Shown piece after piece: positions 42,570 through 51,617 of a stretch of DNA of 64,000 nucleotides. Every line of letters begins with the position of its first letter. Positions within the stretch are counted from its first letter, which is position 1. Source of the DNA: Nitrososphaeraceae archaeon (GTDB lineage: Archaea; Thermoproteota; Nitrososphaeria; Nitrososphaerales; Nitrososphaeraceae); the NCBI GenBank assembly GCA_031316115.1, contig JALDRC010000001.1:186001-250000 (forward strand), given 5' to 3'. The notes under the pieces are model-generated. The model had not been told where the DNA came from and did no database searches. It saw nothing but the letters and a program-made list of their open reading frames with translations. Both the position numbers and the translations under genes were made by a program.

Positions 42570-43514
42570 TTACATCATATTTTCTTTTTCTTCTAATAGT
42601 TTTTGAATAATCTTTTCAGCTATTATATTTGAAGCCAGTTCTTGAGCCTCTTTCGTTTGAGCTCCAATATGTGGCGAACATATAATGTTTGGTAATTGTA
42701 TCAATCTATTATTAGTTGTAGGTTCTTTTTGAAACACGTCCAATGCCGCACCTGCTATTCTATGATTTAACAATGCATCATATAATGCATCCTCATCAAC
42801 AACATCTCCTCGAGAAGTATTGATAAAATACGCTGATGATTTCATTTTGGCAAAAAATTTATCATTAAACATATTCTTTGTTTCAGGTAAAGATGGAACA
42901 TGACATGAAATAAAATCAGAGCTTTCAACAAGTGTCTGTAAATCAGTTATTATCATTCCCACTTCTTTTACAAATTCTCGATCTATTGGAACAGGATCAT
43001 AACCAATCAGATTCATACGAAGAGATCTAGCTAGTCTTCCGAGATTTCTTCCAATGCTTCCCACCCCTATTATACCAAGATATTTTCCTCTTAATTCCGT
43101 TCCATTCAACTCATTTTTTATCCAATTTCCTTTTTTTGTTTCTGCATCTGCTAATAATATTTTTCTTGATAGATTTATCATAAAACCTATAACCAACTCA
43201 GATACAGAGTTCATTGCAGCCTCAGGGGAATTCAATACAGAAATTTGTCTTTTATTAGCTTCTTCTGTATCAATGTTATCTAAACCCACGCCTACTCTTG
43301 CGATAATCTTTACATTTTTAGCCGCTTCAATGACTTGTTTAGTTATTTTTGTTCTACTTCTTACAATTATTATCTCATATTTACCAACTTCTTTAAGAAG
43401 ATCTTCGGTAGTAATTTTTGGATTGTTTGTAATTTTTAATCCTTTTTTTGATAGAATTGAAATTCCAATATCGTCAATCGGATCACAAATTAGTACATTA
43501 TTAACTAGGCTCAC
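42570..43514 (-). CDS. serA: D-2-hydroxyacid dehydrogenase, phosphoglycerate dehydrogenase-like
   Basis: A 314-residue NAD-dependent dehydrogenase without an ACT domain. It has the N-terminal substrate domain (NVLICDPIDDIGISIL), the Rossmann motif LGIIGVGSIGRNLGRLARS near residue 145, the catalytic Arg in VARVGVGLDNIDT-adjacent INTSRGDVVDEDAL, the Glu near AALDVFQKEP and the catalytic His in SPHIGAQTKEAQ. The best assignment is 3-phosphoglycerate dehydrogenase of serine synthesis; glyoxylate or other 2-hydroxyacid dehydrogenases cannot be excluded. It is encoded opposite to the tRNA. Confidence 0.88.
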   Translation of the reverse strand: MSLVNNVLICDPIDDIGISILSKKGLKITNNPKITTEDLLKEVGKYEIIIVRSRTKITKQVIEAAKNVKIIARVGVGLDNIDTEEANKRQISVLNSPEAAMNSVSELVIGFMINLSRKILLADAETKKGNWIKNELNGTELRGKYLGIIGVGSIGRNLGRLARSLRMNLIGYDPVPIDREFVKEVGMIITDLQTLVESSDFISCHVPSLPETKNMFNDKFFAKMKSSAYFINTSRGDVVDEDALYDALLNHRIAGAALDVFQKEPTTNNRLIQLPNIICSPHIGAQTKEAQELASNIIAEKIIQKLLEEKENMM

Positions 43515-43577
43515 ATCAAAAATCTTATTTAATTCAAATATAATTATTACTTAACTTTCTCCAAGAAATGATACTGA

Positions 43578-43967
43578 TTAATATCCATTTGTTCTTGATA
43601 TAATTTCACCTGTGATGTGATCAACATAATATGTGCTATTAACAGGAATTAATTTAACTTCCCAGCCATAATGATTACCTGTTGTAAAGGTACCAGAAGT
43701 TTTTCCAATAGATGGTCCAATTTTTTTTGTAATATTATCTGCCGAATATAATTCTCCAGTTCCTTTTATAAAAACGAACCTGATTTTTGCATCTTGGATT
43801 TGATCTTGTGTAAGATTATTCTCATTTTGTACTATAGATATAGCTATATTTTGGGGGATAGCTTGAAAATTTAAAGATGGTTTACTCAAAGAATCTGACA
43901 ATGCTAAGTAAACAATGAATGCAAAAGCTATTCCAATTCCGATAGAAATTATTAATTTAACTAACAT
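43578..43967 (-). CDS. Membrane-anchored PepSY-like protein
   Basis: A 129-residue protein with an N-terminal membrane helix (LIISIGIGIAFAFIVYLAL) followed by one external domain ending YYVDHITGEIISRTNGY, the closing strand typical of PepSY/YpeB-like domains. These inhibit or modulate proteases or redox proteins at the cell surface. It follows the dehydrogenase gene in the opposite direction of transcription order (upstream of it on the minus strand) with a 63-bp gap, so co-transcription is possible but functional linkage is unclear. Confidence 0.6.
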   Translation of the reverse strand: MLVKLIISIGIGIAFAFIVYLALSDSLSKPSLNFQAIPQNIAISIVQNENNLTQDQIQDAKIRFVFIKGTGELYSADNITKKIGPSIGKTSGTFTTGNHYGWEVKLIPVNSTYYVDHITGEIISRTNGY

Positions 43968-44050
43968 AACAAAAAGATAAACTTGATGTCAATTTAATCC
44001 TAGTTGATTATTAATAAGATTAATAATAAGATTGTATCATCTGTTGAATA

Positions 44051-44524
44051 TTGATAACTATTGAGGAAAAGATGCAAGCTCTAGGTATTACATTACCGCT
44101 GGTTCCTAGACCGGCAGGTTCTTATGTACCAGTTGTTCAAATCAATGACCTTGTATACGTATCTGGACAAATTCCTATTGACACTAATGCTGAACCACCT
44201 TTTGTAAAATACAAAGGAAAAATTGGGCAAGATACAACATTAGAAAAAGGTCAACAGGCTGCTTTGCTTTGTACTCTTAATGTACTTTCGCTAATAAAAA
44301 ATCATCTAAGGAGCTTGGATAGAATCAAACAAGTGGTTAAAGTTGCAGGATATATTAACTCTATTCCAACTTTTTCAGATCATCCTAAAGTTATAAATCC
44401 TGCCTCAGAATTAATAATGAATATTTTTGGGGATAAAGGTAAACATACTAGATTAGCGATAGGCGTGGGAAGCTTGCCTTTAGAGAGTGTTGTGGAGATA
44501 GAATACATTTTTCAAGTGTTTTAG
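44051..44524 (+). CDS. RidA/YjgF-family protein
   Basis: A 157-residue protein starting at TTG 44051. It matches the RidA family: LVPRPAGSYVPVVQINDLVYVSGQIP (N-terminal strand and turn), a middle helix with LNVLSLIKNHLRSL, KVAGYINSIP, and a C-terminal IGVGSLPLESVVEIEYIFQV, where the reactive-enamine arginine of canonical RidA (R in RxxV) is replaced. It is of the longer AldR-type subgroup, probably an imine/enamine deaminase or a non-catalytic relative. It lies upstream of L15e. Confidence 0.85.
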   Translation: MITIEEKMQALGITLPLVPRPAGSYVPVVQINDLVYVSGQIPIDTNAEPPFVKYKGKIGQDTTLEKGQQAALLCTLNVLSLIKNHLRSLDRIKQVVKVAGYINSIPTFSDHPKVINPASELIMNIFGDKGKHTRLAIGVGSLPLESVVEIEYIFQVF

Positions 44525-44645
44525 GCATGCAGATTTTTCCAAAAGTTTTTCCAAACATGGCATTAGTCATACATTTCAAATTTGTAATATTAGCAGAAAA
44601 GAAATTCTTATATAACCTTCTCAAAGATTTTTAATAATATAATAG

Positions 44646-45101
44646 ATGTACAAATACCTAGCTAAAACTTGGATTAATATGTGGAAAACCAATAGTGATG
44701 AGCTAAAAGCTAGAGCTATTGGTTGGAGAAGAGAACTTGCAATTCATAGAATTAACAAACCTACTAGAATAGATAGAGCTAGAAGACTTGGTTACAAAGC
44801 CAAGCAAGGGATTGTAGTTATACGAGCAAGAGTAGGAAGAGGAGGTATGAGAAAACAAAGGCCAACCGCTGGTAGAAGACCAAAACACAGTGGTGTTGTA
44901 CGAATCAAACAAGCTACAAATATGAGATTAGTCGCAGAAAGAAGGGTTAATGAGAAATTTCCAAATTTAGAGATCTTAGGTTCATATTTTTTGTATAAAG
45001 ATGGAAAACATTCATGGTATGAGGTGATCATGGCTGATCCCAATCATCCATCTGTTTCTCATGACAAAGAGATGCGAAGTAAATTAAATACTTTTCATTG
45101 A
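44646..45101 (+). CDS. rpl15e: Large ribosomal subunit protein L15e
   Basis: A 151-residue archaeal/eukaryotic L15e. The sequence is diagnostic: basic start MYKYLAKTWINMWK, RIDRARRLGYKAKQGIVVIR, the GRGGMRKQRPTAGRRPKHSG block and the ending MADPNHPSVSHDK. L15e binds 23S rRNA. The length is slightly shorter than in Crenarchaeota. It is transcribed rightwards on its own, with the roadblock-like gene convergent. A TATA-like element 'ctcaaagatttttaataata' at about 44620-44639 precedes the ATG. Confidence 0.97.
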   Translation: MYKYLAKTWINMWKTNSDELKARAIGWRRELAIHRINKPTRIDRARRLGYKAKQGIVVIRARVGRGGMRKQRPTAGRRPKHSGVVRIKQATNMRLVAERRVNEKFPNLEILGSYFLYKDGKHSWYEVIMADPNHPSVSHDKEMRSKLNTFH

Positions 45102-45159
45102 TTAATTTATTAAATAACTTTAGTTATGGTTTCCTAAAATAAACAAAAATTAATAAACT

Positions 45160-45564
45160 TTAGGAATCAGCAGAATGTCTTAGTTTTTCTGTTATCGAAT
45201 TGATGATTTCATTTAGTTCTTGAGAAGGTATGCTTCTTTCAATAGTAAGATAATAAATTAGTTGGTTTTTGATAAAACTAATAATATTTACTTTCTCGCT
45301 TTGGAACAGAATGAATTCGGTTTGTCCTATAGAATTTTGATAATTCTTTCTAAGATTAAAAATCATCGAATGAATAAAAAACTCATTTCTTGCCTCTGTA
45401 TGGCTTAATAAAGGCACTAATCCTGATTTCATCTTTCCAACAAGGGTTCTTCCGAATTCATTTAGGATTCCTGCGTAACGAATTTTGTCATTTAAAGTCA
45501 GTAATTTATTACATTCTTCCTTTAATTCTTCTTTTCTTTCTAAATCTCTGTTATTCTTATTCAT
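45160..45564 (-). CDS. Conserved thaumarchaeal protein, roadblock-like, paralogue of 33145 gene
   Basis: A 134-residue protein with an N-terminal charged coiled-coil helix (DLERKEELKEECNKLLTLN), then KIRYAGILNEFGRTLVGKMK, NEFFIHSMIFNLRKNY and a strand TEFILFQSEKVNIISFI, ending in a helix. It shares the strand-turn-helix layout and VGI/AGI motif with the gene at 33145. No named function; possibly a small alpha/beta signalling module. The start at 45564 is the ATG preceding a clean helix. Confidence 0.6.
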   Translation of the reverse strand: MNKNNRDLERKEELKEECNKLLTLNDKIRYAGILNEFGRTLVGKMKSGLVPLLSHTEARNEFFIHSMIFNLRKNYQNSIGQTEFILFQSEKVNIISFIKNQLIYYLTIERSIPSQELNEIINSITEKLRHSADS

Positions 45565-45641
45565 TATTTATAATCAAAATTGAAAATATTATTATAAATA
45601 TGTTTTATCGGTGGAAAAACCTCATACTTATGTAATTTGTC

Positions 45642-46301
45642 TCAGTAATTGCCCTTTATAAGAGCGATTTTTTTTAAGAGATTGATTGCATCTAGTTCTT
45701 TGATACTTGTTCTGTTTTTAGAGATGAATTCTTGAAAATTCTTGAGGTATTCTTCTTTATGAGGATATTTATTAATTGATTTATTTATGATAATATCGTA
45801 GTTTCTGAAAGGAAAATAGATATTCTTTGCGATTTTCGTCATAATGAATTTAGTATCTTTGTCTATGATCCCTTTTTTGAGAGCATGAAATAAGTTATAT
45901 CGAATGTCTATCATAGCTTCGGATAGAAGATTATATTCGTTATCAAATGTTACTGCTACTTCATCATCTGCATTAATTATGTTTTTTTTATATAATTCAA
46001 ACACTTGTCCATAACCTTTCATTCCGAATTTCTCCAATTCTACAGCACGTAAAGCACCTAGACTAGATGCACCGTATACTTGAAAATTAGGTTTTTGTAT
46101 TACCTGAAATACCTCTATAGGGGTCGGAGGATAATCTTGTAAAAATACCCCATCGATCAGTATGATAATTCTTTTTTCAGAGTACATAGTGAGATTTATA
46201 AAATCACCTTTTTTGGCTGGAGGTACAAAATCAGCTTCGATTAACTTCCTTGCTTTTTCCAGTGAAAGACTTGGACCCAAGAATATAATAGGAAGATTCA
46301 T
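45642..46301 (-). CDS. TfuA-like protein, partner of YcaO
   Basis: A 219-residue TfuA-domain protein. Markers are the N-terminal IIFLGPSLSLEKARKLI, FVPPAKKGDFINLT, the IILIDGVFLQDYPPTPIEVF segment and QVYGASSLGALRAVELEKFG. TfuA domains work with YcaO enzymes: in methanogens the pair installs a thioamide in methyl-coenzyme M reductase, where TfuA delivers sulphur. The start codon overlaps the YcaO stop codon by 4 bases (ATGA), so the two are translationally coupled. There is no mcr gene here, so the substrate must differ; the adjacent small peptide at 47690 is a candidate. Confidence 0.9.
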   Translation of the reverse strand: MNLPIIFLGPSLSLEKARKLIEADFVPPAKKGDFINLTMYSEKRIIILIDGVFLQDYPPTPIEVFQVIQKPNFQVYGASSLGALRAVELEKFGMKGYGQVFELYKKNIINADDEVAVTFDNEYNLLSEAMIDIRYNLFHALKKGIIDKDTKFIMTKIAKNIYFPFRNYDIIINKSINKYPHKEEYLKNFQEFISKNRTSIKELDAINLLKKIALIKGNY

Positions 46302-47602
46302 TTAAAAAATCTCCTAGCTCGCCATCCCATCATTGATTTTGTAAATTTAAATGTTTCTAAGCCGGGTATTATTGCTCTAACTACTGGAATTCCCAATTTT
46401 TCATTGGTCAGATCAACAATAATGGCTTTATCAATACCTGCATTTTTTAATTTTGATAAAATTAAATTGATATCGTCAAGTATATCATCATTATTCCAGC
46501 TCGTAATTTCTTTAAAGTCAATCATTTCTGTGGATGGAATAAATTGCCAGGAAAATTTATCATCAGAATTGTCTTGTCCATAACGAATTTTCCTCAAATC
46601 ATCCCGTGCCCCCTGTATATTTGCAGCACGAGTTTGAGACACTTCTGTAATAGCTCTTAATAATGCTAATCTTTTATCAGGATGTGTACCATGACCTTCT
46701 GCTAAATATCCATAATCATGAGATATCCATTCTACACATGATACATTAAAAGTTGGAATAGCTATATCGGAAGTAACATCTTTTACAATCAATTTAATAT
46801 TATATTTTTTGAAGCGTTTAATCAACTTCATAATAGGCGCGAAATCAATATTGGATAAATCAACATCTGGGAAGATGTGATTATAGTCCTTAAAATTATC
46901 TTTGGAGATTGGACTAACGTTGTATCCTTGAAATCTAAGGTTACTAGACAGGTTATACAAGATATGAAATGGGATGGCACTGCATCTTAATTGAGCCAAA
47001 CTAACCGCATCTCTTTCAATAATCTCACAAAAAGAATGACAAACCGCTTCCTCCAATACATTACCGGAAGCCAATCCATTTGTATGGTGGAAACTAAATG
47101 GATTTATTGCTGGATATGTAGCGGTATATCTGAATAATGCTAATGAAGATGGAATTAGGATTTCTTCATTGTTGATTAGATCAAATCCTTCGACATAATC
47201 CATTATCATTTCATTCTGATAATCATAGGATAATGGTTCTACTACTTCTTCTGGGTGTAAAACATTATATTTTTGTCGCAATTCTTGATATGTACCTCTA
47301 ATCATTTTTTTCTGGCAAGATTTCGGAAGGGAGGAATACCTTTCAATAGTCTCCATCAATGCGCTTGTTTTGGCATGAGTTTTTGTATGTCCTTTGCCAC
47401 TATAAACCCAAATGTAATCATCAGTTCCAGGTAATACACTAGAATAATTTGGAATATACAATTTATCCATATATGTGATATCGGAAATTCTAGTAAGACC
47501 AATTTGTTTGACCAATCTAGAGACATGACTTAGAGTTGTTTCAGCTGGAATTATTCGAGATGTTCCATTAGAATTCCATTTCTTCCGACTTTGAAGATAC
47601 AA
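46298..47602 (-). CDS. YcaO-domain enzyme (thioamide/azoline-forming ATPase)
   Basis: A 434-residue YcaO protein from a TTG at 47602. The ATP-binding motifs are intact: AKTSALMETIERYSS near residue 80, SFCEIIERDAVSL near 195 and ITEVSQTRAANIQGARD near 325. YcaO enzymes phosphorylate a backbone amide oxygen to form azolines, thioamides or amidines. The C-terminus ends RARRFFK without the PxPxP of azoline-forming YcaOs, which with the coupled TfuA gene favours thioamidation. A TTAAAT-type TATA box about 24 bp upstream suits a leaderless transcript. Genes for an E1-like or ocin-ThiF partner are absent. Confidence 0.93.
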   Translation of the reverse strand: MYLQSRKKWNSNGTSRIIPAETTLSHVSRLVKQIGLTRISDITYMDKLYIPNYSSVLPGTDDYIWVYSGKGHTKTHAKTSALMETIERYSSLPKSCQKKMIRGTYQELRQKYNVLHPEEVVEPLSYDYQNEMIMDYVEGFDLINNEEILIPSSLALFRYTATYPAINPFSFHHTNGLASGNVLEEAVCHSFCEIIERDAVSLAQLRCSAIPFHILYNLSSNLRFQGYNVSPISKDNFKDYNHIFPDVDLSNIDFAPIMKLIKRFKKYNIKLIVKDVTSDIAIPTFNVSCVEWISHDYGYLAEGHGTHPDKRLALLRAITEVSQTRAANIQGARDDLRKIRYGQDNSDDKFSWQFIPSTEMIDFKEITSWNNDDILDDINLILSKLKNAGIDKAIIVDLTNEKLGIPVVRAIIPGLETFKFTKSMMGWRARRFFK

Positions 47603-47689
47603 TTTGAAAAAAATAGGATTTAATGTTCATATCAAGCTTGCGAAAGTTGCATTAAGATTATATACTACCTGTAACATATTTAAAATAGT

Positions 47690-47866
47690 TTGAGTTCCCG
47701 TCAGAAGGAAGCAGAAATAATTAGTGAGATTCTGCTAAAAGCTGCTAGTGAACCAGAGTTTAGAAATATACTTATAAAAGATTCTTCATCAATCCTAGAA
47801 AAATATGATATATCAAATGAGGCAAAGTATATAATTAAAAAAAGTATTAATGATTTAACACAATAA
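47690..47866 (+). CDS. Putative RiPP precursor peptide (NHLP/Franean1_4349-like leader)
   Basis: A 58-residue gene with a TTG start at 47690 and TAA at 47864. A TATA box (TTATATAC, about 47658-47665) at leaderless distance supports the start. Residues 9-31 read EIISEILLKAASEPEFRN then ILIKD, followed by SSSILEKYDISNEAKY. This is the 'DPEFRxxLxxDPxxxLxxxGL' signature of NHLP and Franean1_4349-type precursors and of the nitrile hydratase alpha-derived leaders. The remaining tail, IIKKSINDLTQ, would be the core if it is a precursor. It has no Cys, so backbone thioamidation is more likely than cyclodehydration. It faces the YcaO gene divergently, 87 bp away. Confidence 0.6.
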   Translation: MSSRQKEAEIISEILLKAASEPEFRNILIKDSSSILEKYDISNEAKYIIKKSINDLTQ

Positions 47867-47948
47867 CTATTTGATTTAAATACTCCTATAGTTTAACAGC
47901 ATAAATAAAAAACTCCGAATATAATCAAATAATAACGATAAAATGAAA

Positions 47949-48098
47949 TGTACCCCGCCTCTGACTCACAACTATTCATAGATAGCCATATACATTTAGT
48001 ATATTCCTCCTAGCGCTTTTTAACGGGGTTGACCATGTTATAACTCTATGAATATGAATCGCTGTGCGATTCAGTCCCAAAGGTTATATCCATGGTAA
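47949..48098 (-). ncRNA. Candidate structured RNA of about 150 nt
   Basis: On the minus strand a TATA-like box (TTTTATATAAC, about 48116-48127) lies at promoter distance before a folded stretch. Domain 1 (48096 to 48032) has nested perfect stems: ACCATG/CATGGT, TATAAC/GTTATA and apical GAATCGC/GCGATTC with a 10/11-nt internal loop. Domain 2 (48029 to 47952) is closed by ACCCCG/CGGGGT and contains the hairpin ATATAC-TAAAT-GTATAT. ACA directly follows domain 2, then a T-rich stretch. Such base pairing is unusual for this AT-rich intergenic DNA. An H/ACA-like guide is possible, but no kink-turn was found. The opposite strand folds equally. Confidence 0.5.
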
Positions 48099-48420
48099 TC
48101 AGTATCTCTCGTTTGTTATATAAAATAATTTTGAAATCCAGTAAATAGATATACCACAGGAATAACTTTCTCTTTCGGTATCATGTATGATATTTAATAA
48201 AAGCTTAAGATATACTTCTCTATTATAACAAAGTGATTTAGTTAATATTAATCTAATATTTACGGTCTAAAAATTATTAATTAGAACTATTTTCCTATTT
48301 AACATACCATTTAATCTATAATCCTCTTATTTTGAGCACTGTCTTACTCTTTACTTTTATTTTCATCTAGGGAGTAAATAACAAGCCCAAACAAAAGAAC
48401 AAATTAATATCCGAACGATA

Positions 48421-50109
48421 TTATTTTATGTCCTTTATGATTTCACTCAAATCTATCTCTAATATTGAAATTGGGACTCGTATATTATAATCACTTATTA
48501 TTTTAGGAGAAACTTCTCCAATTATCCCTATATTATGATCTTGGAAAAATACGTTAGCCGATCGTCCATTTATAAAAAGAATATGTTTTAATGGTTTAGT
48601 CTGTATTTCTTTGTCAAATGTTATTTTGAATATAGATCTAAGTAGAGATCTGATTTGAGTAAAATCAGTATTGTTAGATGATATTGATAGAGCTAAATTC
48701 CATTTTTCAGTCATATTTTCATCAATTCTGAAGATCTTACCTATCTCAAATATTTTTTGAGGATATTCTTCATGAATATTGTGAGAAAGGTTCTTCATAA
48801 GAGAAGGAATGAGACTTGCTCTTAAAAATTCATGTTCACTACTTTTACTTTCATGAACTTTAAGTAAATGATTATTTTTTTCATTATATGTTTCTTCTAT
48901 TTCTATACCTTTTTGATCCACAAGACTAAAATTTAATACTTCCTGAAATCCAAAACCAATGATGGTTTTCCTTAACTCCCTAAAAAATTCACTTACAGGA
49001 TCCTCTATGCCAGCTGAAATTTTAAAAGATGGAAGATTAGGTTCTAAGTTATATATGCCATATCCTAGGGAGACCTCTTCCACAACATCTATAGGGTTTC
49101 TAATATCAGTCCTATATTGCGGTATAATACATTTTAGTTCTTTATTTTTAAGCTTTATTGCATCTATCCTGACTTTTTTCAATGAACTTATAATTTCATG
49201 AGTTGAAAGATTTAACCCTAAAATGCTATTGATATAATCCTCTTTGACACGTACAAATTTATTAGTAAGTTTTTTTAGAGGAAAGAATGTCTTCGTTCTA
49301 TATTCGGATACAGGGCCGGATATTATTTTAAATTTCTCATCGTAAAAATAGCAAAATAAAATGGATATTATATTCCTAGCTATTTCCAAATCCGTAGCAG
49401 TAACTTCGACTAAAAGATTTTGAGTTTCGAGTGTAACCTTAGTCCTTTCGCTATTAATTATCGGTGGAAATGAAACAATATCGTTATTTTGATCTACAAG
49501 GATAGGATATTTTTTAAAATCCTTTATTAAATGACTATATTTTTTTCCTTTAGGCAATATATCTAGGATCTGATTTAAGCTATATCTGTTAGATTCATCT
49601 AATGGGATAAATTCTCTTTCCTTATCAGAAGTAGAATACCTCAGAGGAAATTTCATTTTATTTAAATCATGAATTCCTATAGAAGCTTTTCTTCTTCCTC
49701 TACCTATTCCGTTGTGAAGATCCTCTTGCATCGAAATAATTTGTTCCATTAAATCTTGGTTTATTTCTTTATTCTTTGCTACAAAAAATAGAATATATGG
49801 TCTTATTTTTTTTACAGATTTATCTACCTCAATTTTATAATGCGAACTAATTGAATAATCAAATTTTGGTATACCTAATTCTCTATTCAAAAATCCCTTC
49901 AATGATCTGAATATACCTAGGTCAGTTGAATAATCTGGTCGGTTTGGATTATATTCGATTCTCACAATATCATCCTCGATCCCTTCTATATCCAGTCCTA
50001 AAAATGGAATGTTATCTAAAATCTTCGAAAGTGAGTAATTAGGGAACGATGATTTAATTTTGGTTTTTTTTAGATTTACAACTGGAATTTTTGAACACCT
50101 CTCAGCCAA
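48421..50109 (-). CDS. pheT: Phenylalanyl-tRNA synthetase beta subunit
   Basis: A 562-residue archaeal-type PheT, the non-catalytic subunit of the (alpha-beta)2 enzyme with the B3/B4 editing domain. Visible features are SKILDNIPFLGLDIEGIEDD near the start, EYNPNRPDYSTDLGIFRSL, the B3/B4 region (GIGRGRRKASIGIHDL), and motif-like sequences near the C-terminal catalytic-fold domain (EFLRASLIPSLMKNLSHN; KIFEIGKIFRI). The TTG start at 50109 overlaps pheS by 34 bases; a downstream start is possible but the overlap is common in archaea. It forms one operon with pheS. Confidence 0.95.
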   Translation of the reverse strand: MAERCSKIPVVNLKKTKIKSSFPNYSLSKILDNIPFLGLDIEGIEDDIVRIEYNPNRPDYSTDLGIFRSLKGFLNRELGIPKFDYSISSHYKIEVDKSVKKIRPYILFFVAKNKEINQDLMEQIISMQEDLHNGIGRGRRKASIGIHDLNKMKFPLRYSTSDKEREFIPLDESNRYSLNQILDILPKGKKYSHLIKDFKKYPILVDQNNDIVSFPPIINSERTKVTLETQNLLVEVTATDLEIARNIISILFCYFYDEKFKIISGPVSEYRTKTFFPLKKLTNKFVRVKEDYINSILGLNLSTHEIISSLKKVRIDAIKLKNKELKCIIPQYRTDIRNPIDVVEEVSLGYGIYNLEPNLPSFKISAGIEDPVSEFFRELRKTIIGFGFQEVLNFSLVDQKGIEIEETYNEKNNHLLKVHESKSSEHEFLRASLIPSLMKNLSHNIHEEYPQKIFEIGKIFRIDENMTEKWNLALSISSNNTDFTQIRSLLRSIFKITFDKEIQTKPLKHILFINGRSANVFFQDHNIGIIGEVSPKIISDYNIRVPISILEIDLSEIIKDIK

Positions 50110-51617
50110 CCTAGATTATTGTTATACAAATCTCTGACATCAGATAAATTGTATTTAAGCATAGCTATTCTCTCTATACCACCTCCCCATGCCAGAACTG
50201 GATTTTTAATTCCCAAAGGTTCGATAACTTCAGGTCTAAAGATACCCATACCGAAAAGTTCTATCCATTTATCCAATCTTTCGTTATATATCATGGATTG
50301 TAATGAAGGTTCAGTGTATGGAAAGAATGTGGGCCAGAATTTTACTTTCGTGATGCCGATTTTTTTGTAAAATTCCAATTGTATACCCATCAAGTCCCTA
50401 AGTGATATATTATGACCTGTAACAACACCTTCAATTTGATGGAATTCAACCAGGTGCTTATACGAGACCTTTTCATTTCTAAAAACTCTTCCGATAGTGA
50501 AAAGTTTTGATTCAACTGGATTTTTTTTTGCTAGATACTGCAAGGTAACAGGAGTAGTATGTGTTCTTAATACTGCTCTTCTCGCTTCGCTAGTTTTCCA
50601 TTCATAATTCCAACCTTTTTTATGTGCCTCAGAAACATTTCTAACAATTCTTCTATTTTCTAGTCCATCATTTTTTTCAAATCTTAGATAAAATGTATCT
50701 TGCATTTCTCTTGCAGCATGATCCTGGGGAGTAAATAGTGCATCAAAATTCCAGAAAGAAGATTGTATATAATTTCCCTCAATTTCTACAAATCCAAGAC
50801 TAACAAATGCTTCTCGAATTTCTTCTATAAGATCAATTAGAGGATTAGTCCTTCCCGGAAATAATAATGGAGTATTTGATTCGACATCCAGAGGTCTAAA
50901 AACAATGTTTTTCCATTTTCCTGAAACAAGCATATCTGAAGTCAATGAATGATCATAATTTCCATCTGTGGAATCTAGACTGCTTTTTTCAGATTCCAGA
51001 ATGGATTGAACTCTCTCTCCTTCTTCGGTTAACCTAATAAATTCTTCAGATTTCTTTAACATTACAAATTGTGGTCGTTTTTTTAAAATCTCAAGGGTTG
51101 TCAATTCATCAGAGGATAAATCATGCTCACTCAAAATATTATTTTCATAAATTTTTTGTAATAATGCTTCTTCAGAACTAAATTTAGGATCTTTTAAAAT
51201 TTCTATAACATTGGCTCCGGTTTTTTCATCTTTTTTGATTTGGATCCATTTGTTTGTTTTCGCTTTAAATACGGCTATATTTATTTCAGATTGAGTTACT
51301 TTCCCTGTCTTTAAGATTTCTGAAATCGTTGAATATCCATCTTTGATAGTTTCTAATAATCGTCTTTCAGGAAGACCATCATTGATTGATTTGATCCCGA
51401 AAGTTCCTAGTGAAATTATATTATGTTGGCTTTCATATGAACTAATTAAATTTTTGAATTTTAACCACTCCAAACCCCTTCTGATTTGATCAATATTTAG
51501 ATCTGTAGATATTTTCAGTGAATTTATCGAAGATCCACTCTTATTTTTTATTGATTTAATTATTTTCTTTTCGATTGGATGTAGTGTCTTTATATTGCTA
51601 TCGTCCAATTTTTTCAA
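50076..51617 (-). CDS. pheS: Phenylalanyl-tRNA synthetase alpha subunit
   Basis: A 513-residue catalytic subunit, archaeal/eukaryotic type, with an N-terminal part of three winged-helix-like tRNA-binding domains (IRRGLEWLKFKNLISSYE and similar). The catalytic class II core follows: motif 1 region NPLIDLIEEIREAFVSLGFVE, motif 2 TRTTP-type VLRTHTTPVTLQYL and RVFRNEKVS, and motif 3 GGGIERIAMLKY near the C-terminus. A TTG start at 51617 gives KKLDDSNIKTLHPIEKKI. It is upstream of and overlaps pheT, and is divergent from trpS across a short palindromic gap. Confidence 0.96.
   Translation of the reverse strand: MKKLDDSNIKTLHPIEKKIIKSIKNKSGSSINSLKISTDLNIDQIRRGLEWLKFKNLISSYESQHNIISLGTFGIKSINDGLPERRLLETIKDGYSTISEILKTGKVTQSEINIAVFKAKTNKWIQIKKDEKTGANVIEILKDPKFSSEEALLQKIYENNILSEHDLSSDELTTLEILKKRPQFVMLKKSEEFIRLTEEGERVQSILESEKSSLDSTDGNYDHSLTSDMLVSGKWKNIVFRPLDVESNTPLLFPGRTNPLIDLIEEIREAFVSLGFVEIEGNYIQSSFWNFDALFTPQDHAAREMQDTFYLRFEKNDGLENRRIVRNVSEAHKKGWNYEWKTSEARRAVLRTHTTPVTLQYLAKKNPVESKLFTIGRVFRNEKVSYKHLVEFHQIEGVVTGHNISLRDLMGIQLEFYKKIGITKVKFWPTFFPYTEPSLQSMIYNERLDKWIELFGMGIFRPEVIEPLGIKNPVLAWGGGIERIAMLKYNLSDVRDLYNNNLGWLRGVQKFQL

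Follow-up and report, generated by a model that had tools for sequence, protein, structure and literature searches.

A leader-like small protein as candidate partner and substrate of a YcaO-TfuA pair in an archaeon without detectable McrA

Elsewhere, YcaO-TfuA pairs put sulfur in place of a backbone oxygen of the methane-making enzyme McrA, on a glycine. In the excerpts of the literature on which we draw, the methanogen YcaO clade includes homologues from ammonia-oxidising archaea (Nayak 2017, PMC5589413), and TfuA works with a thiocarboxylated ThiS-like carrier (PMC13063428). According to the same partial text, the YcaO of E. coli also has a folded protein, and not a RiPP core, as the target of its thioamidation; it differs from the pairs considered here in having no TfuA, in belonging to another YcaO subfamily and in acting on a ribosomal substrate, uL16 (PMC13063428). 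YcaO partners are likewise known for the NHLP precursors (PMC4603692, PMC2887384, both in extract), which the excerpted Haft 2010 (PMC2887384) characterizes by homology in the leader, a Gly-Gly site, a correlation with ABC transport and a C-terminal region that is hypervariable and in which heterocyclisable residues abound. In Actinobacteria, a small gene of the nitrile-hydratase-leader type stands beside the TfuA gene (RiPPER network 7, PMC6511847, in extract), much as we find below; the likeness is one of description alone, and those clusters are bacterial and their small genes encode the precursor peptides of gene clusters.

For the archaea of interest here, the extracts of a 2021 mining study count eight thaumarchaeal TfuA clusters (PMC8120280), while TfuA goes unmentioned in the main-text portions of a 2025 archaeal RiPP survey (PMC12144867). 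Among the open-licence PubMed Central papers found, taken in extract, none named a substrate for the pair of ammonia-oxidising archaea, and searches of them turned up no earlier description of the peptide family reported below or of its mutual exclusion with McrA.

The window, a stretch of 64,000 nucleotides from a Nitrososphaeraceae archaeon, carries such a pair. According to the ORF listing and translation, ycaO (47602-46298, minus strand) encodes 434 residues and overlaps by an ATGA with tfuA (46301-45642, minus strand; 219 residues), as a sequence-only reading of this DNA had reported; the two genes adjoin and the YcaO motif residues are kept, as is characteristic of YcaO-TfuA pairs. A Pfam search of the 3.16-Mb genome returned this ycaO as the single YcaO gene, matched as two stretches. 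The pair resembles that of methanogens, YcaO scoring 276.7 bits against the McrA-glycine thioamidation model TIGR03266 and TfuA 209 bits against NF033432, but both remain under the equivalog cut-offs (365 and 235.2 bits, respectively). Against NF040716, the model of the E. coli YcaO subfamily, YcaO reached 36.2 of 700 bits. The closest solved structures by sequence are MJ1094 (6pe3) for YcaO and 6xp8 for TfuA. Next to the pair lies a gene weakly resembling DUF6659 (45160-45564, minus strand; E 0.0067, 17 of 27 bits), and lookalikes, judged by eye, stand beside ycaO-tfuA at loci where the peptide gene is elsewhere (L091 4326-4742, L097 3592-3966). We found no Rfam match at 45000-48500 and no tRNA within 43000-51000.

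Divergently from ycaO, and 87 bp from its start, lies the small gene of 58 codons with a TTG start that the sequence-only reading had pointed out (47690-47866, plus strand). The intergenic region between them (47603-47689) holds its promoter, with a TATA-like box, TATATA (47659-47664), starting 31 nt 5' of the TTG. Of 37 loci (the window and L110-L145), 32 have a TATA-like box that starts between -36 and -22, whereas 200 shuffles of the same upstream stretches gave 11.7 loci on average and 19 at most; the five loci without one are of the g10 type (L141-L145). The aligned start is TTG at all 36 named loci, and TTG at 34, ATG at five and GTG at one locus of a 40-locus set of relatives, which includes the window and has genomes in common with the 36. 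Together with the position of the box, these counts indicate that the TTG start is itself conserved, and it is probably leaderless.

Relatives of the small gene were collected by single-sequence and profile searches and by a scan of named genome contigs, the source of the 36 loci. Their titles read Nitrososphaerales, Nitrososphaeraceae, Nitrososphaera, Nitrosocosmicus or Nitrosopolaris, except for two MAGs titled Nitrosopumilus, whose peptides resemble those of Nitrosocosmicus. Family members are 55-62 residues long; the window protein is free of cysteine, as had been noted for its presumed core, and five of 35 members have one. The reading frame is under purifying selection, with NG86 dN/dS values of 0.06-0.15 among five same-genus relatives and of 0.04-0.05 between the window and four of them, synonymous sites being near saturation. 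Genus g8 (Nitrosopolaris-type) has extra copies unlinked to ycaO (L146, L147, L148, L149, L150 and L164), some of full length and others truncated or cut by contig ends. We considered whether these could be precursors with other cores and rejected the idea, as the full ones end within 0-2 residues of the same place.

The supposition that the peptide belongs with the YcaO-TfuA pair was borne out by the distribution of the two. Among 400 genomes of the window's class, 63 carry both peptide and YcaO, three the peptide only, five YcaO only and 329 neither, at thresholds of E <= 1e-10 for the peptide and E <= 1e-20 for YcaO; G282, with a partial gene, and G343, with a broken frame, were scored as YcaO-positive, and 23 of the 89 genomes reached at a peptide E <= 0.1 had weak matches alone (E at least 5.6e-4) and were not counted. 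The three peptide-only genomes are 67, 69 and 72% complete. Where YcaO was found alone, the gene lies 54 and 361 bp from the contig start (G250 and G012, respectively), the genome is 66% complete (G371) or YcaO is a distant one (G289 and G291). Contig ends or incompleteness may explain the missing peptide in G012, G250 and G371.

Homologues of the peptide were indeed found beside other ycaO-tfuA pairs; together with the codon-level conservation of its frame, this means that two of the three conditions that would have refuted the sequence-only reading turned out in favour of it. In the 68 genomes with both genes, these lie at most 900 bp apart in 48, 1.0-1.7 kb apart in five, all of family f2, and apart in 15; according to the printed strands, all 48 close pairs are divergent. 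Of the separated cases, 14 belong to g12 and one to g4; three have the genes more than 0.9 Mb apart on one contig and 12 have them on different contigs. That both genes are kept after separation argues against mere hitch-hiking. The Fisher p-values of the linkage data (1.8e-63 and 3.3e-8) overstate the association because they treat genomes as independent; since genomes share ancestry and presence follows few clades, the counts of peptide, YcaO and McrA represent few independent events. In G008, G016, G023, G028 and G033 the small gene adjoins the same DNA-glycosylase-like gene, as judged by eye.

The distribution of McrA is complementary to that of the peptide. McrA was not found in the window's genome, in agreement with the sequence-only reading, and the methanogen controls were positive. 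In 349 genomes of the phylum, TfuA was detected in 34 (E <= 1e-20) and the peptide in nine (E <= 1e-5), eight of which are among the 34; the ninth match (G630, E 4.3e-7) falls inside an ORF of 428 residues that looks recombinase-like by eye, and was dropped as probably due to chance. All 26 remaining TfuA-positive, peptide-negative genomes of the phylum have McrA. So do G289 and G291, members of family f13 in the window's order, in which YcaO, TfuA and McrA are present and the peptide is absent, bringing the count to 28 of the 28 such genomes tested. Conversely, the peptide occurs where McrA is absent: none of the 20 peptide-positive genomes tested has it (0/1, 0/8 and 0/11), these being 20 of the 68 with both genes. 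From coordinates, tfuA and mcrA are at most 10 kb apart in 16 of the 26 McrA genomes, so that the substrate of the pair is its neighbour there, and the peptide profile found no match in the surroundings of ycaO-tfuA in 16 McrA-genome loci. This mutual exclusion suggests that the small protein occupies the place that McrA has elsewhere.

What kind of protein is it? The sequence-only reading had seen in it the leader signature of NHLP, nitrile-hydratase-derived and Franean1_4349-type precursors. For the window protein alone the match to the NHLP leader model TIGR03793 is weak (E 0.022), but across the family the signature is clear: at E <= 0.1, 34 of the 35 members hit the Os1348 model (best 2.8e-6), 32 hit TIGR03793 (best 5.9e-5) and 25 the Franean1_4349 model, the individual matches shown all falling under the curated cut-offs. 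By these profiles, the relation to NHLP and Os1348 proteins appears to be one of clan-level homology, not of membership. Against solved structures, the family profile retrieved nitrile hydratase alpha chains (best 1v29, E 3.5e-7), the NHLP peptide 9cjx (E 0.0098) and the LigA-type domain of gallate dioxygenase (3wku, E 0.014). An AlphaFold2 model from a shallow alignment of 37 sequences predicts helices at residues 3-20, 22-30, 32-36 and 43-57 (mean pLDDT 88, pTM 0.70). Fold searches with it were weak and carry little weight (best Foldseek E 1.7, Z at most 5.4); the proteusin precursor 8tb1 was among the matches (Z 3.7). Nitrile hydratase alpha chains and LigA-type domains thus share profile matches and, at weak scores, a helical arrangement with the small protein, but they are parts of metalloenzymes and not stand-alone proteins of 58 residues. 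We regard the small protein as a leader domain and little else.

A further set of differences lies in YcaO itself. We compared 44 chosen loci, including 14 of the 26 McrA genomes and both f13 genomes, in trees and in a YcaO comparison. In the trees of both YcaO and TfuA the peptide type and the McrA type split with full support; the trees are midpoint-rooted, hence the direction of change is not given. The YcaOs of this clade and those of 16 McrA genomes have 69 nearly invariant positions in common, among them the two ExxER stretches, which presumably have a role in ATP binding; at 13 positions the residue switches. The clade also has an insertion at residues 210-243 (46874-46975, minus strand), each column of which is occupied in at least 80% of 22 clade YcaOs and in at most 20% of 16 McrA-genome YcaOs; as a guess, it is a possible docking element. 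We ruled it out as a feature specific to the peptide because six paralogous YcaOs without TfuA carry it too. Taken against the methanogen system, then, the window pair has 69 YcaO positions in common, but it falls into separate tree clades, has a 34-residue insertion in YcaO and is accompanied by a small NHLP-clan protein in a genome without McrA.

The paralogues just mentioned, 53-57% identical, occur in genus g10 and in G018 (L099 5129-6517, L100 5402-6961, L101 5489-6889, L102 641-2071, L103 503-1885, L104 615-2033 and L105 1533-2951). No TfuA was found beside them in the six loci searched. By eye, their flanks hold copies of a protein whose motif resembles PFGxTYGEWSARWWQWxxSIPK, and one copy gave no match when scanned against Pfam; this protein is possibly another family of YcaO partners.

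Considering all the above, our main reading, to which we give a probability of about 0.5, is that the small protein is a new substrate of YcaO-TfuA: a dedicated, leader-only partner that most likely carries the thioamide itself. Nitrososphaeraceae, the Nitrosocaldaceae-like family f2 and a third related family, f3, keep a methanogen-type pair without McrA, and it would work there with a dedicated helical protein, a stand-alone NHLP/Os1348-type leader domain devoid of a core, which would take the place of McrA as substrate. TfuA would bring sulfide from a ThiS-like carrier, for which ThiS-like genes of the window genome could serve, and YcaO would activate a backbone amide with ATP; thioamide chemistry is likely for the window pair, given its relatives. 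The product would be a small folded protein bearing a thioamide that presumably stays in the cell, being neither cleaved nor exported. We put forward more tentatively that a leader has here become the product, a free-standing NHLP-type domain turned into a folded, conserved protein with a backbone thioamide. As to the position modified, the conserved non-helical stretches 20-22 and 37-42 would, as a guess from the model, offer the most accessible backbone.

Several points speak against the small protein as substrate. It has no free core and no conserved glycine, the residue modified in McrA, and most of its conserved backbone is helical in the model, so that YcaO could hardly reach it. In addition, G012, G250 and G371 have YcaO without peptide, the g8 copies are unlinked, and the YcaO insertion is found in paralogues without TfuA.

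In the main rival, the coreless leader acts in trans, as a subunit of the enzyme: it would bind and activate YcaO-TfuA or dock the pair on a third protein, the one that bears the thioamide. We consider this possible and well worth keeping in mind, without expecting it to hold. The small protein is a recognition-type domain on its own, evenly conserved and with no variable part, which would suit an adaptor, as would the clade-specific insertion in YcaO, and, in the excerpts available, E. coli YcaO modifies its folded ribosomal protein via tertiary structure (PMC13063428). However, no third conserved gene accompanies the unit among the nearby genes of the loci inspected, and McrA-type pairs need no adaptor, as the silence of the peptide profile in 16 McrA-genome loci illustrates.

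The sequence-only reading itself had proposed a RiPP, in which the C-terminal tail (IIKKSINDLTQ) would receive the thioamide and, once cut off, be set free as a natural product or signal. The clan homology to RiPP leaders favors it, as do the nitrile-hydratase-type precursors beside TfuA genes in Actinobacteria (PMC6511847, in extract) and the genes for secreted proteins that come after the small gene in part of the genomes (Nitrosocosmicus, part of Nitrososphaera, G008 and f2). Nevertheless, its core found no support. No Gly-Gly site occurs in 35 and 37 sequences of two alignments, A1, which holds 35 of the 40 collected peptides, and A3, the 37 rows of a scan in which the invariance at residues 13-21 is partly by construction, since the scan pattern fixed those residues. 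In A1, on which we rely for entropies, the mean column entropy is 1.75 bits at residues 2-12, 1.34 at 13-44 and 1.60 at 45-58; no hypervariable part emerged, the C-terminal end being slightly above the middle and below the start. The combined share of cysteine, serine, threonine and glycine is 0.15 over the last 15 residues and 0.13 elsewhere. The last 14 residues sit in the predicted helix 43-57, meaning that the model is folded to the end, and the tail is not conserved, its final DLTQ becoming DDFK, DGFR, KEQL, LTSN or FNEI in other genera and families. Unlike NHLP-type precursors, with which it has leader homology, the small protein is thus conserved throughout, has neither Gly-Gly site nor hypervariable core, and is single-copy in most genomes. 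Judged by eye, no ABC-type exporter stands beside the unit of the window, and neither an exporter nor a protease is conserved there in the loci inspected. A classical RiPP with a hidden core meets the same evidence from alignments, entropy, Gly-Gly count and model, and we regard the RiPP proposal as unlikely.

The surroundings of the small gene were searched for a core or a substrate encoded separately. When the interval from the peptide gene to pheT was inspected by eye at six loci of the same genus, no second small, core-bearing ORF stood out, and the conserved stretch there looks non-coding. Secreted proteins as the real substrate were also rejected, their genes being absent downstream in the window and in its genus. 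In the f2 locus L106 (7496-10963), ycaO and the small gene have an SBF-family transporter between them, and behind the small gene come genes that look secreted, one of them containing BNR repeats; at L107 (4330-5610) a secreted-looking gene lies 17 bp behind the small gene; and in three f2 loci permease-like genes, identified by eye, stand 3' of tfuA. A conserved element of about 85 nt (window about 47949-48030, minus strand) fills part of the space that separates the stop of pheT from that of the small gene; it is matched with at most three mismatches in 16 of 37 loci (the window and L110-L145) and in none of nine others. By eye it is guide-RNA-like, with a G+C stem, CCCCG/CGGGG, followed by ACA; Rfam gave no match to it, RNAalifold proposed 12 pairs with no two-sided change, and its folding z-scores are weak.

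Least probable of all, we believe, is that the small protein is linked to the pair and functionally separate, regulating it or sharing its promoter region while the pair acts elsewhere, for example on a ribosomal protein: the genes are divergent rather than in one operon, and g8 has unlinked extra copies, some truncated, but both genes are kept in the 15 genomes where they lie apart, the small protein was not found where the pair serves McrA, and the clan to which it belongs is made up of leaders that serve modification enzymes.

The joint occurrence of the genes, the persistence of both once they are apart and the exclusion with McrA together name one small protein family as the partner of the pair, and the role of YcaO-TfuA in ammonia-oxidising archaea becomes testable, directly by mass spectrometry. 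Should the small protein carry a thioamide, a RiPP leader can become a modified resident protein; a thioamidated leader would add a third kind to the protein thioamidations of McrA and uL16, and a modification system of the methanogen type would have been directed to a new target in ammonia-oxidising archaea without McrA. If it is instead an adaptor, it points to another protein that bears the thioamide, in organisms that matter for nitrogen in soils.
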